This document shows positions 287-20,391 of a stretch of 20,450 nt of DNA, piece after piece. Position 1 is the first letter of the stretch, and every line of letters begins with the position of its first letter. Both the position numbers and the translations under genes were made by a program. Source of the DNA: Planctomycetaceae bacterium UBA4732 (GTDB taxonomy: Bacteria; Planctomycetota; Planctomycetia; Gemmatales; Gemmataceae); assembly GCA_002404095.1 (NCBI GenBank), contig DHJA01000085.1, forward strand, positions 8,477 to 28,926. Reading direction: 5' to 3'. Under the pieces are notes generated by a model, which saw only the letters and a list, made by a program, of their open reading frames with translations, had not been told where the DNA came from and searched no databases.

Positions 287-2284
287 TTATTCCGCGACGA
301 GGTCACGGATCGCCTGCGCGATCCGTTCCGGATTGGGGACGACGGCCGCTTCCAAGGCCGGGCTATAAGGAGTCGGCGTATGCGCGCCGTTGAGCCGGCG
401 AATGGGCGCGTCCAAGTCGTCGAAGCCGCGGTCGGCGAGCTGGGCGGCGATCTCCGCGCCGAGGCCGAACGGCGCGAATGCTTCGTCCACAATAAGGAGC
501 CGGCCCGTCTTCGATACGGATTGCAAGATCGTCTCCACGTCCAACGGCGCCACGGTGCGCGGGTCGATCAACTCGACGGATATTCCCTCTTTTTCCAGTA
601 TCTCACACGCCTTCAATGTATGGTGAACCATCAGGGCGAGCGCAACCACCGTCACATCGCGGCCCTCGCGCACCACGGCCGCCTTACCGAATTCGATCTC
701 ATAGTCCTCGGCCGGGACGTTACCTTTCAGCCCCATAACCTCTCGATGTTCAAGAAAAATCACCGGGTCGTCACAGTTTAGCGCGCGTATCATAAGCCCC
801 TTGGCGTCATAAGGCGTCGAAGGGACGACGACGCGCAGCCCGGGAAAGTGGGCGTACATCGGATAGTAATTGCCGGAATGGTGCGTGGCGGCGGAATGGC
901 CGACGCCGATGCAGCCGCGCAAAAGGATCGGCATTTTCAGCCGGCCGCTGCTCATGTACTGCATCTTGGCGATTTGATTGACGATCTCGCCGACGGCGTC
1001 GAGAACAAAGTCGGCGAACATAAAGTCGATGACCGGCCGCGTTCCCGTCATGGCGGCGCCGCAGCCGAGACCCACGAAGCCGCGCTCACTAATCGGCGTG
1101 TCGCATAGACGCACGGGGCCGTACAGGTCGTACAAGCCGGCGGTGGAGCGAAAGTTGCCGCCGCGCTTGCCGATGCCCTCGCCCATGACGAAGATCGACG
1201 GATTGCGGGCCATCTCGGACGATAACGCCTCTAAAGTAGCCTGCATGTAGCTTATTTCACGGCCGGCATTTATGGTGGGCGACTCGCTCCGCGAGTCGCA
1301 TTTAGGCTCAGCGTAAACATGGTCCGTTGCGGTCGCAGGGTCGGGCGCCGCGCTCTTCTCAGCGAAACGGTGCGCCTCCTCTACCTGCGCCTCGATTTCG
1401 GCGTCAATCGCGCTCAATTCCTCCTCGCCAACGCCGGTTTTAAGCATCTCCTGCTTCAAGCGCCGAATCGGACACCGCGTCTTCCACTGCTCAACTTCTT
1501 CCTTTGTGCGATAGCCAAAATCGCCCATACCTTCCGCATGGGGGCGCGTGCGATACGTCAAACATTCGAGCAAAGTGGCGCCGTCGCCTGCGCGTGCGCG
1601 GCCAACGGCTTCCTTGGCCGCCCGGTGGACCGCGGCCACCTCGTTTCCATCCACCTCGACGCCGGGCAAACCATAGGCGGCGGCTCGCGCGGCTACGGTC
1701 GCATTGCCGGCCGCGTATTGGAACGGCACTTCGGTGGCGTACTGATTGTTCTCGCAGACAAAGAGGACCGGCAATTTCCAGATGCCTGCCATGTTCAAGC
1801 CTTCATGGAAGGCGCCGTTGTTGACCGCGCCGTCGCCGAAGAAAGCCACGGCCACGCCATCCGTTTTCAGCACCTTGAAGCTATAGCCGGCCCCCGCGGC
1901 CTGGAGGATGCACGGCCCAACGATGCCGCTCGTGCCCATCATGCCAATTTCAGGGGCGAATAGGTGCATACTGCCGCCGCGCCCATGCGAACAACCGGCC
2001 TCCCGGCCGTACAGTTCAGCGATCAACTGTTGCGGAGGCAAGCCCTTGGCCAAGGCATGGCCGTGCCCTCGATGCGTGCTGAAAACAACATCGGTCGGCC
2101 GTAGATTCGCGCAGACGCCGACGGCAATGGCTTCCTGGCCGACGTAGGTGTGACAGGCGCCGTGGATCAGGCCGCGTTGATGAGACCGCGCCAATCGCTC
2201 TTCACAGCGACGGATCAGCATCATTTGCCGATAAAGCGATAGGAATTGGTCTTTATTCAGGGATGGTAAAACTTTGGTCGCCAT
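287..2284 (-). CDS. Fused E1 alpha/beta subunits of a thiamine-diphosphate 2-oxoacid (pyruvate/acetoin type) dehydrogenase
   Basis: This 665-residue protein joins both E1 subunits in one chain. Residues about 10-320 are the alpha part, with the ThDP motif GDG at 150-152 and the closing NN at 179-180, spaced as in the family (about 28 residues). Residues about 340-665 are the transketolase-like beta part, including DTPISERGFVGLGCGAAMTG near 395-414 and GVGHSAATHHS. The enzyme would decarboxylate a 2-oxoacid or acetoin and pass the acyl group to the lipoyl protein encoded immediately downstream. The ATG at 2282-2284 has GGAGAG about 12 bp upstream. Alpha and beta are usually separate genes; fusions are known in this family. 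The linker (about 325-340) contains residues encoded by a perfect 9-bp palindrome. Substrate cannot be decided from sequence; acetoin or pyruvate are both reasonable. Confidence 0.92.
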   Translation of the reverse strand: MATKVLPSLNKDQFLSLYRQMMLIRRCEERLARSHQRGLIHGACHTYVGQEAIAVGVCANLRPTDVVFSTHRGHGHALAKGLPPQQLIAELYGREAGCSHGRGGSMHLFAPEIGMMGTSGIVGPCILQAAGAGYSFKVLKTDGVAVAFFGDGAVNNGAFHEGLNMAGIWKLPVLFVCENNQYATEVPFQYAAGNATVAARAAAYGLPGVEVDGNEVAAVHRAAKEAVGRARAGDGATLLECLTYRTRPHAEGMGDFGYRTKEEVEQWKTRCPIRRLKQEMLKTGVGEEELSAIDAEIEAQVEEAHRFAEKSAAPDPATATDHVYAEPKCDSRSESPTINAGREISYMQATLEALSSEMARNPSIFVMGEGIGKRGGNFRSTAGLYDLYGPVRLCDTPISERGFVGLGCGAAMTGTRPVIDFMFADFVLDAVGEIVNQIAKMQYMSSGRLKMPILLRGCIGVGHSAATHHSGNYYPMYAHFPGLRVVVPSTPYDAKGLMIRALNCDDPVIFLEHREVMGLKGNVPAEDYEIEFGKAAVVREGRDVTVVALALMVHHTLKACEILEKEGISVELIDPRTVAPLDVETILQSVSKTGRLLIVDEAFAPFGLGAEIAAQLADRGFDDLDAPIRRLNGAHTPTPYSPALEAAVVPNPERIAQAIRDLVAE
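1279..1299. repeat. Perfect palindrome in the E1 alpha/beta junction (9-bp arms, 3-nt loop)
   Basis: Arms GCGACTCGC and GCGAGTCGC flank the loop TCC, giving the centre CGCTCCGCG on the plus strand. It is in frame inside the fused E1 gene and encodes the CDSRSES stretch of the inter-subunit linker. Its outer six bases differ from those of the palindrome at 1-21, yet are complementary to each other, so the hairpin rather than the sequence is conserved. Confidence 0.8.
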
Positions 2285-2702: not shown

Positions 2703-3173
2703 ATGAGAACGCAACTACTGTCTGGAGCCGGGAAGCGCGTGCTGTGTTCGATGCTCGTCTGCTTACTGTGGGCCTTGGCGGTCCCCGCCGGCGCGAGGGC
2801 CGCCGCGGCCTTTGGAGACACGACCTGTGCTGTTCAGTCCGTCACCATTGGTGCGACGACCACCTGGCAAATTAAGGGCACGACGTCGGTTACCGGCCTC
2901 ATCCCCGGCGGTAATGGCGTAACCGTCACGGTCGAGTTCCAAAAGATGGCGAAGGGTGCCCCGGGCTGGTCCAAGATGTTGAAGGTGAAACAAGAGATCG
3001 ATGGCCTCGGGGGCAAGGCGACGATCGACACGGGTTTCAACGATTTCACGGCGGCGCCGGCCTCGGGCGATCAATATCGCATCCACGTGACTGGGGCAAA
3101 CAGGACTGCTCCGCTCCCGAAGAACAATCCGTTGAACCCAGTCGATTCGACCCCGATCACTCCCATCCCATGA
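2703..3173 (+). CDS. Small secreted beta-rich protein, function unknown
   Basis: The 156-residue product begins MRTQLLSGAGKRVL, followed by the hydrophobic stretch SMLVCLLWALAVPAGARA, a clear signal peptide ending around residue 34. The mature part (about 120 residues) is rich in Thr, Val and Gly in alternating hydrophobic patterns (VTIGATTTWQIKGTT, NGVTVTVEFQK), which suggests a small beta-sandwich, and ends in a Pro/Asn-rich tail. I do not recognise a family. I chose the ATG at 2703 because the signal peptide begins there and GGGAGA lies 8 bp upstream; the frame is open further upstream but that extension has no signal character. It sits about 165 bp before a DUF1559 pseudopilin in the same orientation, so the two may be expressed together at the envelope. 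Confidence 0.7.
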   Translation: MRTQLLSGAGKRVLCSMLVCLLWALAVPAGARAAAAFGDTTCAVQSVTIGATTTWQIKGTTSVTGLIPGGNGVTVTVEFQKMAKGAPGWSKMLKVKQEIDGLGGKATIDTGFNDFTAAPASGDQYRIHVTGANRTAPLPKNNPLNPVDSTPITPIP

Positions 3174-15369: not shown

Positions 15370-15452
15370 AAACTCGACGCGGTTTGTAAAAAGGTTAGAA
15401 CGGTTGTAACTGTCGCCGATGGAATCGTCGGCGTTTGTGGAAAACTCTTCCC

Positions 15453-16922
15453 ATGACCAAACTCCTTGCCTTTGACCTCGGCGCCGAGAGCGGCCGTGCC
15501 GTGCTGGGGCATTTCGACGGCCGACAACTCCGTCTCGAAGTTCTAACACGGTTCGCCAACGAGCCAGTGCGGACGCTCGACGCCCTCCACTGGGACGTGC
15601 TGCGACTGCATCACGATATGCTGGCCGGGATGCGCCTGTGCGCCGCCGAACACGGCGGCGCCGATGGCGTCGGCGTCGATACATGGGGCGTCGATTTTGC
15701 GCTGCTCGGCCGCAGCGGCGAGCTGCTGGGCAACCCGCGCCACTATCGCGATCGGCATACCGAAGGCGTCATGGAACGCGCCTTCGCCGTCATGCCGCGC
15801 CAGGAGCTATTTCGGCAAACGGGCATCCAGTTTATGCGCTTTAACTCGCTGTTCCAGTTGCTGGCGCTAAAGCGCGACGATTCGCCGCTGCTGGAAGCGG
15901 CCGAAACGCTGCTGTTCATGCCCGACCTGTTCCACTATTTCTTCACCGGCGAAAAAGTGAACGAATACACCGACGCCAGCACCAGCCAGATGCTCGACCC
16001 TGCCACGCGGACCTGGGCGGCCGGCCTGCTCCGCGCGTTCGGATTACCGGAGTGCATTCAAGGAAGGATCGTGCAGCCGGGCACGGTGTTGGGGCCGTTG
16101 CATCGCACGGTGGCGGACGATACGGGCTTGATAGGGACGAAAGTGGTGGCGCCGGCGACGCACGATACGGCGGCGGCGGTGGCGGGGGTGCCGGCGCAGG
16201 GCGATGCGTGGGCGTACATCAGTTCGGGTACATGGTCGCTGATGGGCGTGGAACTAGCAGAGCCGCAGGTCAACGAGGAGACGCTCGCGGCCAACTTCAC
16301 CAATGAAGGCGGCGTAGGCGGCACAGTGCGGCTCTTAAAGAACATTATGGGTTTGTGGTTGGTGCAGGAGTGTCGGCGCGCCTGGGAGCGGATCGGCATG
16401 ACCTACAGCTACGAAGCGCTGATGCGGTTGGCGGAAAAGGCGCCGCCGTTCGTCAGCGTGGTGAATCCCAACGACGATTCGTTCCTCTTGCCGGCCAACA
16501 TGCCGGAGGCGTTGGCCGCTTATTGCCGGCGGACGGGGCAGCCGGCGCCGGCCGATCCGGGGGCGACGGTGCGCTGCGCGCTGGAGAGTCTGGCGCTATG
16601 CTATCGGTGGGTGCTGGAGCGATTGGAGGGGCTGACGGGCAAGCGGTTGGAGGCGATCCACATCGTTGGCGGCGGTTGTCAGAACGTCTTACTGAATCAG
16701 CTGACGGCGGACGCCTGCGACCGGCCGGTGTTGGCCGGCCCGGTGGAGGCAACGGCCATCGGCAACGTGCTGACGCAGGCCATCGGCCTCGGCGTTCTCG
16801 GCTCGTTGGCCGACGCGCGTGAGGTAGTGCGGCGGTCGTTCGAGGTGCGCACCTTCGAGCCGCGGAACGCCGACGCCTGGCAAGGGCCGTATGCTCACTT
16901 TCAATCGCTTCGCGGCGCATGA
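15453..16922 (+). CDS. rhaB: Rhamnulokinase
   Basis: The 489-residue protein is an FGGY carbohydrate kinase most like rhamnulokinase, which phosphorylates L-rhamnulose to L-rhamnulose 1-phosphate with ATP. The N-terminal phosphate-binding motif FDLGAESGRAVLG is at residues 7-19, GVDTWGVDF at 74-82, the catalytic aspartate D238 in HDTAAAVAGVP, YISSGTWS at 255-262, and the ADP-binding glycine motif GGGCQN at 406-411 followed by GPVEATAIGNVLTQ. The Ala-Glu-Ser-Gly in motif 1 and the position of the catalytic Asp fit RhaB better than xylulokinase or glycerol kinase. Start taken at the ATG 15453; its ribosome binding site is weak (GGAAAA 13 bp upstream). No rhamnose isomerase, aldolase or transporter is adjacent, so it is a stand-alone member of the rhamnose/fucose pathways. 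Confidence 0.9.
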   Translation: MTKLLAFDLGAESGRAVLGHFDGRQLRLEVLTRFANEPVRTLDALHWDVLRLHHDMLAGMRLCAAEHGGADGVGVDTWGVDFALLGRSGELLGNPRHYRDRHTEGVMERAFAVMPRQELFRQTGIQFMRFNSLFQLLALKRDDSPLLEAAETLLFMPDLFHYFFTGEKVNEYTDASTSQMLDPATRTWAAGLLRAFGLPECIQGRIVQPGTVLGPLHRTVADDTGLIGTKVVAPATHDTAAAVAGVPAQGDAWAYISSGTWSLMGVELAEPQVNEETLAANFTNEGGVGGTVRLLKNIMGLWLVQECRRAWERIGMTYSYEALMRLAEKAPPFVSVVNPNDDSFLLPANMPEALAAYCRRTGQPAPADPGATVRCALESLALCYRWVLERLEGLTGKRLEAIHIVGGGCQNVLLNQLTADACDRPVLAGPVEATAIGNVLTQAIGLGVLGSLADAREVVRRSFEVRTFEPRNADAWQGPYAHFQSLRGA

Positions 16923-18435: not shown

Positions 18436-20391
18436 TCAGGAAGCCGGCGCCGCCGACGGATAACGGCTCTTGACCATCTCGCGCAGCGAAGCGGCGAACT
18501 GCGGATGTTGGTCGAGGACTCGCTTGAAATCCGCCTTGTCCAGGACGAACAGGTCGCACGCCTTCAGCGCGCGGATCGAAGCCGAGCGCGCCTGCTCCAA
18601 CAAAAGGCTGAGTTCGCCGAAAAAGTCTCCATCGTAGAGGGTTGACAGCACTTTGCCCGCCCCGTCGAGCACCTCCACCTGGCCGCGACAGATGAAGAAC
18701 ATTTCGTTGCCCATATCTCCTTTTTTGATGATAAAGTCCCCGGCCGAATAAACGACAGGTTTCAACATCATGGCCAGGTTTTGAAGGAAGACCGGGCCGC
18801 CTCCTTGGAAGAGAGGGACTTTTTCCAGATTGTCCCGGTTGATGACCTCCACCCACTGCCGGCCGTCGCGCTCGACCAGGCCGTAAGCCGCCTTCGGTCC
18901 CCAGGAGCCGGCCGGATAGTTCGGAAATTCAAACGGCGCCGCGCTGGACCAGGCGTCAAGCAACGGCTGGGCGACGCGCCAGGCGGACTCGACCAGATCG
19001 GTGCGCGAGAAGAGCGTGGCGTCGCCGATCATGCAGTTGTAGAGCAGAACTTCGTAACCGGTGCCGCGCGACGCCTCGAAGGCCTCGCGGTAGTCGAAGC
19101 GCATGTTCACCTTTTGCAGAAACATCGACGGCCCCGGATTCTTGGCGTGGAAACGGAACTCAATGCCCTGATCCGGTTGGATGTGGAACAGCAGCCGGTT
19201 GGATTCCAAGGTGTTCGCCGCGGGCGTGTCGCGGAAAATCACTTGCGGCACTTTCTTGAACTGAACGATGATTTCGGTGCCGCGCTTCCACAGCGCCTTG
19301 CCCGAACGTAGGTAGATCGGCACCCCTTCCCAGCGCCAGTTGTCGATAAGGAGTTTGCAGGCCGCGAATGTCTCCGTTGCCGATTGTGGGTTCACGTCCG
19401 GCTCTTCCCGGTAGCCCGGCGTCACCGTGCCGTCGGCCTTCCTTCCGGGGCCGTACTGGCCGCGGACGACGTTTAGCGCGACCTCCGCAGGCGTCATGAC
19501 GCGAACGGCGTCCATGAGCTTGGCCTTCTCGTTGCGGATCGCGTCCGGCTTGAACGAGGCCGGCGCCTCCATGCACAAGTAGGCCAACATCTGGAACATA
19601 TGATTCTGGATCATGTCGCGCAAAACGCCGACCGTGTCGTAATACTTGCCCCGTCCCTCCACGCCGACCGTCTCCGAGACGGTGAATTGGATGTGATCCA
19701 CATGGTGTTTGTTCCACAACGGCTCAAAGATGCCGTTGGAGAAGCGGAAGGCGAGGAGGTTCTGGACCGTCTCTTTGCCAAGATAATGGTCGATCCGGTA
19801 TATCTGCGATTCGGACCAGTGGGCCAGCAGCTGGCCGTTGAGCTTGATCGCCGACGGCAGGTCGTGTCCGAAGGGCTTTTCGACGATGATGCGCGTCCAG
19901 CCTTTTTCGCGCTTCTTGAAACCCGCCTCATTGAGGTGTCCGGAGATCAGGCCGAAGACCGACGGTGGCGTGGCCATGTAAAAGATGATGTTGCCGCCGG
20001 CTTGATACTGGGCGTCGAGCTTGGCGACCAGCTCGGCCAAGCGCCGATAGGCTTCGGGATCGCTGAAGTTGCCCGGCGTGTAATAGAGGCGCGAGACGAG
20101 GTGCTGCCAGCTGCCTTCGTCATACTTTTGGCGCGTGCTGAACTTCTTGATGTCGTCCGTCATGCGCGCGCGGAAGTCATCGGTCGAAAGCTGGTCAAGA
20201 GCGATCCCGATAATGGCAAATTGCTCCGGCAATAGGCCGTCGCAAGTCAGGTTGTAGAAGGCCGGCATGAGCAGCCGTTTCGTCAGGTCGCCGGACGCGC
20301 CAAAAATCACGATCAGGCACGGCTCTCCCGGAGGGACGGTCCCACGGGACGCTTCGCCGACGGTTCGCTGGGTCTGCGTTTCAGTTGCCAT
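18436..20391 (-). CDS. zwf: Glucose-6-phosphate dehydrogenase fused to a C-terminal cyclic-nucleotide-binding domain
   Basis: The 651-residue protein is G6PD over about residues 20-515. It has the NADP motif IFGASGDLTKR (29-39), the substrate/active-site motif RIDHYLGKE (199-207) and VEKPFGHD (about 170-177). It oxidises glucose 6-phosphate to 6-phosphogluconolactone at the entry to the oxidative pentose phosphate pathway. Bacterial Zwf is normally about 480-510 residues. Here about 110 extra residues (about 526-636) form a cyclic-nucleotide-binding domain: a Gly-rich beta-roll (GDFIIKKGDMGNEMFFICRG) and the phosphate-binding cassette FFGELSLLLEQARSASIRA, with the Glu (593) and Arg (602) that usually contact cAMP or cGMP. 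The ATG at 20389-20391 is chosen over an upstream TTG. No pgl or gnd gene is adjacent. Regulation by a nucleotide is inferred. Confidence 0.93.
   Translation of the reverse strand: MATETQTQRTVGEASRGTVPPGEPCLIVIFGASGDLTKRLLMPAFYNLTCDGLLPEQFAIIGIALDQLSTDDFRARMTDDIKKFSTRQKYDEGSWQHLVSRLYYTPGNFSDPEAYRRLAELVAKLDAQYQAGGNIIFYMATPPSVFGLISGHLNEAGFKKREKGWTRIIVEKPFGHDLPSAIKLNGQLLAHWSESQIYRIDHYLGKETVQNLLAFRFSNGIFEPLWNKHHVDHIQFTVSETVGVEGRGKYYDTVGVLRDMIQNHMFQMLAYLCMEAPASFKPDAIRNEKAKLMDAVRVMTPAEVALNVVRGQYGPGRKADGTVTPGYREEPDVNPQSATETFAACKLLIDNWRWEGVPIYLRSGKALWKRGTEIIVQFKKVPQVIFRDTPAANTLESNRLLFHIQPDQGIEFRFHAKNPGPSMFLQKVNMRFDYREAFEASRGTGYEVLLYNCMIGDATLFSRTDLVESAWRVAQPLLDAWSSAAPFEFPNYPAGSWGPKAAYGLVERDGRQWVEVINRDNLEKVPLFQGGGPVFLQNLAMMLKPVVYSAGDFIIKKGDMGNEMFFICRGQVEVLDGAGKVLSTLYDGDFFGELSLLLEQARSASIRALKACDLFVLDKADFKRVLDQHPQFAASLREMVKSRYPSAAPAS

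Follow-up and report, generated by a model that had tools for sequence, protein, structure and literature searches.

A planctomycete glucose-6-phosphate dehydrogenase fused to a C-terminal cyclic-nucleotide-binding domain, a candidate for direct second-messenger control

The stretch of DNA analysed here (the window; 20,450 nucleotides of Planctomycetaceae bacterium UBA4732, Gemmataceae, assembly GCA_002404095.1, contig DHJA01000085.1, positions 8,477–28,926) holds a gene, zwf-CNBD, that joins glucose-6-phosphate dehydrogenase (G6PD) to a C-terminal cyclic-nucleotide-binding domain (CNBD; Table 1). Its reading frame is unbroken from the ATG at 20391 to the stop codon at 18436–18438 of the minus strand, and Pfam places G6PD_N at residues 28–211 (E = 2.9e-64), G6PD_C at residues 213–513 (E = 3.9e-116) and cNMP_binding (PF00027) at residues 546–629 (E = 3.3e-21; 75.5 bits against a cut-off of 27.5). 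Both G6PD domains score above cut-off with the whole length covered, and the TIGR00871 zwf equivalog spans residues 24–515 (609.5 bits; cut-off 400.6). The 485 amino acids of 1dpg align onto model residues 19–517, and the extension past the canonical G6PD end amounts to 134–137 residues. The start codon lies 59 bases from the window edge, yet deep within the 149,817-base contig C66. The original prediction of a one-frame fusion that is no window-edge artefact, with a PF00027 match to be sought in its tail, is therefore borne out by the 651-amino-acid open reading frame inside that contig, by the Pfam match and by more than 100 other fused proteins.

Table 1 Features of zwf-CNBD and its most suggestive genomic partner
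Feature	Protein residues	Position	Strand	Basis or remark
zwf-CNBD (G6PD + C-terminal cyclic-nucleotide-binding domain)	651 aa	18436..20391	minus	
G6PD NAD(P)-binding domain, motif GASGDLTKR	28–211	19759..20310	minus	PF00479 + conservation
Active-site motif RIDHYLGKE (D201; catalytic His equivalent H264)	199–207	19771..19797	minus	Conservation
G6PD C-terminal domain	213–513	18853..19755	minus	PF02781
CNBD plus N-terminal helices	517–645	18457..18843	minus	Few residues after canonical G6PD end
Phosphate-binding cassette GDFFGELSLLLEQARSAS	588–605	18577..18630	minus	G588, F591, G592, E593, R602 invariant in 96/96 rows
NuoG/HoxU-like iron-sulphur protein: two CNBDs, C-terminal 4Fe-4S part	809 aa	L193:954-3383, contig C66		About 8.6 kilobases beyond zwf

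A search with residues 515–651 returned 98 matches, 95 of which combine G6PD with a CNBD (all three Pfam domains are present in 91; the other 4 are shorter and have G6PD_C and cNMP_binding only). When a distant member served as the query, 6 further fused proteins were gained. The resulting 101 database proteins, which are clusters at 90% identity and include members labelled Gemmataceae (P0051) and Isosphaeraceae (P0031), make G6PD–CNBD a protein family and not an accident. At E 1e-100, 23 of the 95 genomes of the window’s family carry the fusion, 21 at full length, one cut by the contig end (G468) and one split between frames (G419). The two-frame copy in G419 (L198) may be a decaying gene or reflect read errors, and two similar fused copies on similar-sized contigs of G488 (C65 and C66) are perhaps strain duplicates (7% contamination). 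The architecture whose count across Planctomycetota had been proposed thus recurs in relatives, although it is not general to the phylum: among the matches listed, which were sorted by score, 6 of 392 sampled genomes hold it, the window’s own included. The fused gene has also reached a betaproteobacterium, in that one of the best 80 loci in a scan of named genomes (L083) belongs to a betaproteobacterial metagenome-assembled genome, where it lies directly behind a 6-phosphogluconate dehydrogenase gene. No fusion was found among the plasmid records listed (10, with 490 further, and 12, with 313 further), three records covering 80% of the query not being placed among the 10. That the fusion stems from chimeric assembly or faulty annotation of a metagenome-assembled genome could be imagined from the 299 contigs of the window’s assembly and the split G419 copy, but the 101 database proteins, the 28 fused rows of the tree described below, the betaproteobacterial copy and the correlated divergence of the two parts all speak against it; as the fusion recurs in many proteins and genomes, we reject this explanation, the probability of which is negligible.

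For the alignment, two other CNBD proteins and one truncated G6PD were left out, which gave 96 rows including the window protein. With the catalytic residues mapped from D177 and H240 of Leuconostoc mesenteroides (PDB titles; offset of 24), D201, H202, K206 and E207 are present in every one of the 92 rows ungapped there (the part is missing from 4 short rows), H264 is conserved in 95 of 95 ungapped rows, and W513, which we take to be the counterpart of the human G6PD Trp at the structural NADP+ site, is conserved in 96 of 96. The Rossmann GxxGDL motif, RIDHYLGKE and the catalytic Asp/His pair were all found (one of these checks covered 70 of the 96 rows). The product is thus presumably a catalytically competent G6PD isozyme.

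The C-terminal part has the beta-roll fold, and its phosphate-binding cassette is canonical, Glu and Arg included. Residues F591, G592, E593 and R602 do not vary in the alignment (window protein included) and the motif recurs in 6/6 of the later proteins, so that the cassette Glu and Arg are kept in 102 of 102 proteins with that of the window; the intact channel/kinase-type cassette described in the original prediction is kept in all of these fused homologues. Only 7 of the 130 CNBD columns are invariant, and 5 of these fall within the 18-residue cassette (p = 5e-4). As far as the consulted part of Kannan et al. 2007 (PMC2246266) goes, the canonical cassette consists of FGE and an Arg that is linked to a Gly in the beta2–beta3 loop; in our own alignment G561 is the counterpart of this Gly (91 of 96 rows). 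The residue following the cassette Arg varies (T in 47, S in 15, N in 11, A in 10 and others in the remainder of the 96 rows) and base preference is therefore unreadable from the sequence. The closest solved CNBD is that of the channel SthK, which was deposited with cyclic AMP (cAMP) and cyclic GMP (cGMP).

We suggest that zwf-CNBD probably encodes a G6PD isozyme that cAMP or cGMP regulates through its own attached domain. In this scenario, cAMP or cGMP from class III cyclases would bind the C-terminal CNBD, and the resulting hinge movement, given that the domain is tied on by a very short linker, could reach the terminal part of the G6PD fold (the region of W513) and from there the G6PD dimer or tetramer. 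The state of the oligomer or of the active site would thereby be altered and G6PD activity raised or lowered, so that NADPH output would be adjusted without involving the unfused G6PD isozymes. The identity of the ligand, its binding, the sign of its effect and the coupling route are what we infer here.

The CNBD might instead be a genuine sensor of another ligand (for example, c-di-nucleotides, nucleosides or cyclic CMP/UMP), which we consider unlikely. Such a role would agree with the variable residue after the cassette Arg, which leaves base preference unfixed, and with the use of the CNB fold for other ligands (Kannan et al., PMC2246266, in the part consulted); however, the CooA and CprK examples given in the same part of that source have non-canonical cassettes, whereas FGE and Arg are invariant in fused G6PDs, and near relatives of their CNBD are domains of cyclic-nucleotide-gated channels. 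A mainly structural CNBD, which would hold the oligomer or dock a partner and for which ligand binding would hardly matter, is distinctly unlikely in our view. The short linker would suit it, as would the activity of G6PD as a dimer or tetramer and two close relatives that lack the domain (see below), but 5 of 7 invariant columns cluster in the ligand cassette rather than elsewhere.

Cyclases that might supply the messenger postulated for cAMP or cGMP control are widespread: class III cyclases (PF00211) are encoded by 91 of the 95 family genomes, with 5 matches in that of the window. Two of these (L188 and L189), which presumably resemble FHA/GAF proteins, have the metal Asp and the Asn/Arg in place. 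At what we take to be the purine-selecting position, both read Lys where Asp would be expected; their product is uncertain for this reason, which also favours a sensor of another ligand. Fusion genomes hold more cyclases than others (median 5, n = 23, against 2, n = 72; p = 4.8e-4 by genome and 0.005 by genus). A link between the fusion and cyclase number was set aside, as independent pairs on the rpoB tree gave it no support. In G447, a class III cyclase with an EYTVIGD motif (L164:2732-4303, minus strand) lies about 2 kilobases from the fused gene; a cyclase–zwf operon was dropped as a candidate, given the opposite-strand open reading frame between the two genes.

In a G6PD tree of 491 columns (a quick tree, the root of which was not inferred), the 28 fused rows group with 2 unfused ones on a single branch (Shimodaira–Hasegawa-like approximate likelihood-ratio test (SH-aLRT) support of 100) separate from 49 unfused G6PD rows, and the fusion label needs two changes. 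The simplest reading of this tree is a single gain of the CNBD with one or two losses. Divergence of the G6PD part is correlated with that of the CNBD (r = 0.945, 378 pairs), and the ratio of non-synonymous to synonymous substitution (dN/dS) of the CNBD is 0.075–0.32 for the 12 of 13 pairs that allowed its calculation, which together argue that the fusion evolves as a constrained unit under purifying selection.

Several observations weigh against control of the enzyme by cAMP or cGMP. The distribution is patchy (23 of 95) and requires 7 changes when mapped onto the rpoB tree, which covers 28 genomes (30 were chosen, 2 of which were without an rpoB match). Two close relatives (L011 and L197) have no CNBD, so that the domain is dispensable for the enzyme. 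It is also less constrained than the G6PD part, with a mean pairwise identity of 49% against 64% and a higher dN/dS in 11 of the 11 pairs with both values, and its C-terminal helix is predicted at lower model confidence (blocks 72 and 58). On the side of the messenger, the fusion genome G446 (69% complete) is without a PF00211 match, the cyclase excess is absent in independent pairs on the rpoB tree (same direction 0.6 and opposite 0.3 of 5), and the Lys in L188 and L189 departs from the presumed rule. Finally, most of the other gene neighbourhoods inspected are not of the pentose phosphate pathway. In the window’s genome, the rpoB match itself runs across two open frames (contig C273:1686-3417), perhaps through an assembly indel.

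Both modules, and the control of an enzyme by a CNBD, are already known; what appears to be new is a G6PD that bears one. The best PDB sequence match to the fused protein is the Synechocystis G6PD with OpcA (PDB 9EMM; E = 3.2e-144), and G6PD activity of this type is set by the added regulatory protein OpcA according to the part consulted of PMC13071761, whereas the planctomycete enzyme would carry its regulator on the same chain, where it would respond to a small ligand. The likeness to the SthK CNBD extends to the helices before the beta roll, and channels are among the nearest non-G6PD proteins, although the fused G6PD is without a channel and carries its CNBD on a soluble metabolic enzyme. 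The mycobacterial Pat/KAT lysine acetyltransferase (CNBD–GNAT) also bears a CNBD on an enzyme with a role in metabolism, and cAMP is reported to activate it (PMC5861322, in part); there the CNBD is N-terminal and the enzyme different, and the fused CNBD matches NF058543 (Pat/KAT type) at E = 1.2e-8, below its cut-off. The Bact_Pyrredox family pairs a CNB with a pyridine nucleotide-disulphide oxidoreductase-type redox enzyme (Kannan et al. 2007, PMC2246266, in the part consulted), which differs from G6PD, and ‘glucose-6-phosphate’ occurs 0 times in the main text of that paper. PMC12750041, as far as the part consulted goes, has a G6PD that is F420-dependent and, as a different protein, one with a CNB. 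A targeted full-text literature search, which had most subscription journals outside its reach, met no published G6PD–CNBD, in keeping with the earlier statement that no characterised one was known.

Control of the fused enzyme by cAMP or cGMP would matter for redox supply. G6PD opens the oxidative pentose phosphate pathway and is a main source of NADPH, and its known control acts through NADPH, redox state or partner proteins. If a second messenger does switch G6PD itself directly, the enzyme would be controlled in a new way, and this would point to a function for planctomycete class III cyclases.

The fused protein is an extra isozyme, which refines the original prediction: besides it, three G6PD_N genes are present in the window’s genome, with frames open over 504, 464 and 516 amino acids, and one of them lies near opcA. 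Among 60 genomes searched for OpcA (PF10128), matches were found in 7, all of them family carriers of the fusion (7 of 23), and in 0 of 5 fusion genomes outside the family. In 7 of 7, opcA is on a different contig from the fused gene and close to an unfused G6PD match (at 189–268 bases in 6, and at 1,262 from a G6PD_N match in the window’s genome), and an opcA adjoining the gene, as would mark an OpcA-dependent G6PD, was not found for the fused gene. As opcA was found only near unfused G6PD, some cells may have two kinds of the enzyme, one linked to OpcA and the other to a CNBD. PF10128 was likewise found in none of the 23 genomes whose unfused relatives are of cyanobacterial type (G003 to G293) and in none of the 6 family non-carriers tested, which leaves the CNBD as a plain cis substitute for OpcA unsupported.

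Just beyond the window, a transketolase gene on the same strand ends 190 bases upstream of zwf-CNBD, and no terminator-like site was found in the gap between them. A conserved operon around the fused gene was not found, as neighbourhoods vary between the lineages compared. An FGGY-family sugar kinase (window 15435-16922, plus strand) lies near the fused gene and transketolase. Farther away are multihaem cytochromes and a NuoE–NuoF fusion, and behind these the gene of the 809-amino-acid iron-sulphur protein (Table 1).

This iron-sulphur CNBD redox protein is the most suggestive genomic partner of the fused G6PD. Full-length relatives (at least 57% identity, a cut chosen after the list was seen) occur in 18 of 95 family genomes: 16 of the 23 with the fusion have one, as do 2 of the 72 without it (Fisher’s test, p = 5.7e-11 for genomes and 4.7e-6 for genera). 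Weaker partial matches in 35 more genomes bring the number to 53 of 95. On the rpoB tree the co-occurrence is not significant (same direction in 1.7 of 5 pairs, never opposite). In G446 the iron-sulphur gene ends at base 2895 and the fused-gene match begins at 3030 on the same strand. Among 31 genomes outside the family chosen by hand, 5 of 5 fusion genomes tested have long matches (three without the N-terminal 175–181 residues), as has G058, which holds a close relative of the fused gene without a CNBD; G377, G003 and partly G076 also have long matches, without the fusion, and the betaproteobacterial match is short (N-terminal part only). The first CNBD fits the cassette pattern in 14 of the 18 relatives (L221, L230, L231 and L234 miss it). 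We offer, as a tentative and rather speculative possibility, that one cyclic mononucleotide might set redox balance at the protein level, without a transcription factor, through the fused G6PD (NADPH) and the NuoG/HoxU-like CNBD protein paired with its NuoEF-like subunit.

The three PF00027 genes found in the window’s genome all encode redox proteins, that is, the G6PD, the iron-sulphur protein and a thioredoxin-reductase-like protein (L194:1510-3387, minus strand) with an N-terminal CNBD and a degenerate-looking cassette, TGDVSHLTGRRSIVSAVA. At the other end of the window, a 665-amino-acid open reading frame (287-2284, minus strand) joins the alpha and beta parts of an E1 dehydrogenase (E1_dh + Transket_pyr + Transketolase_C).
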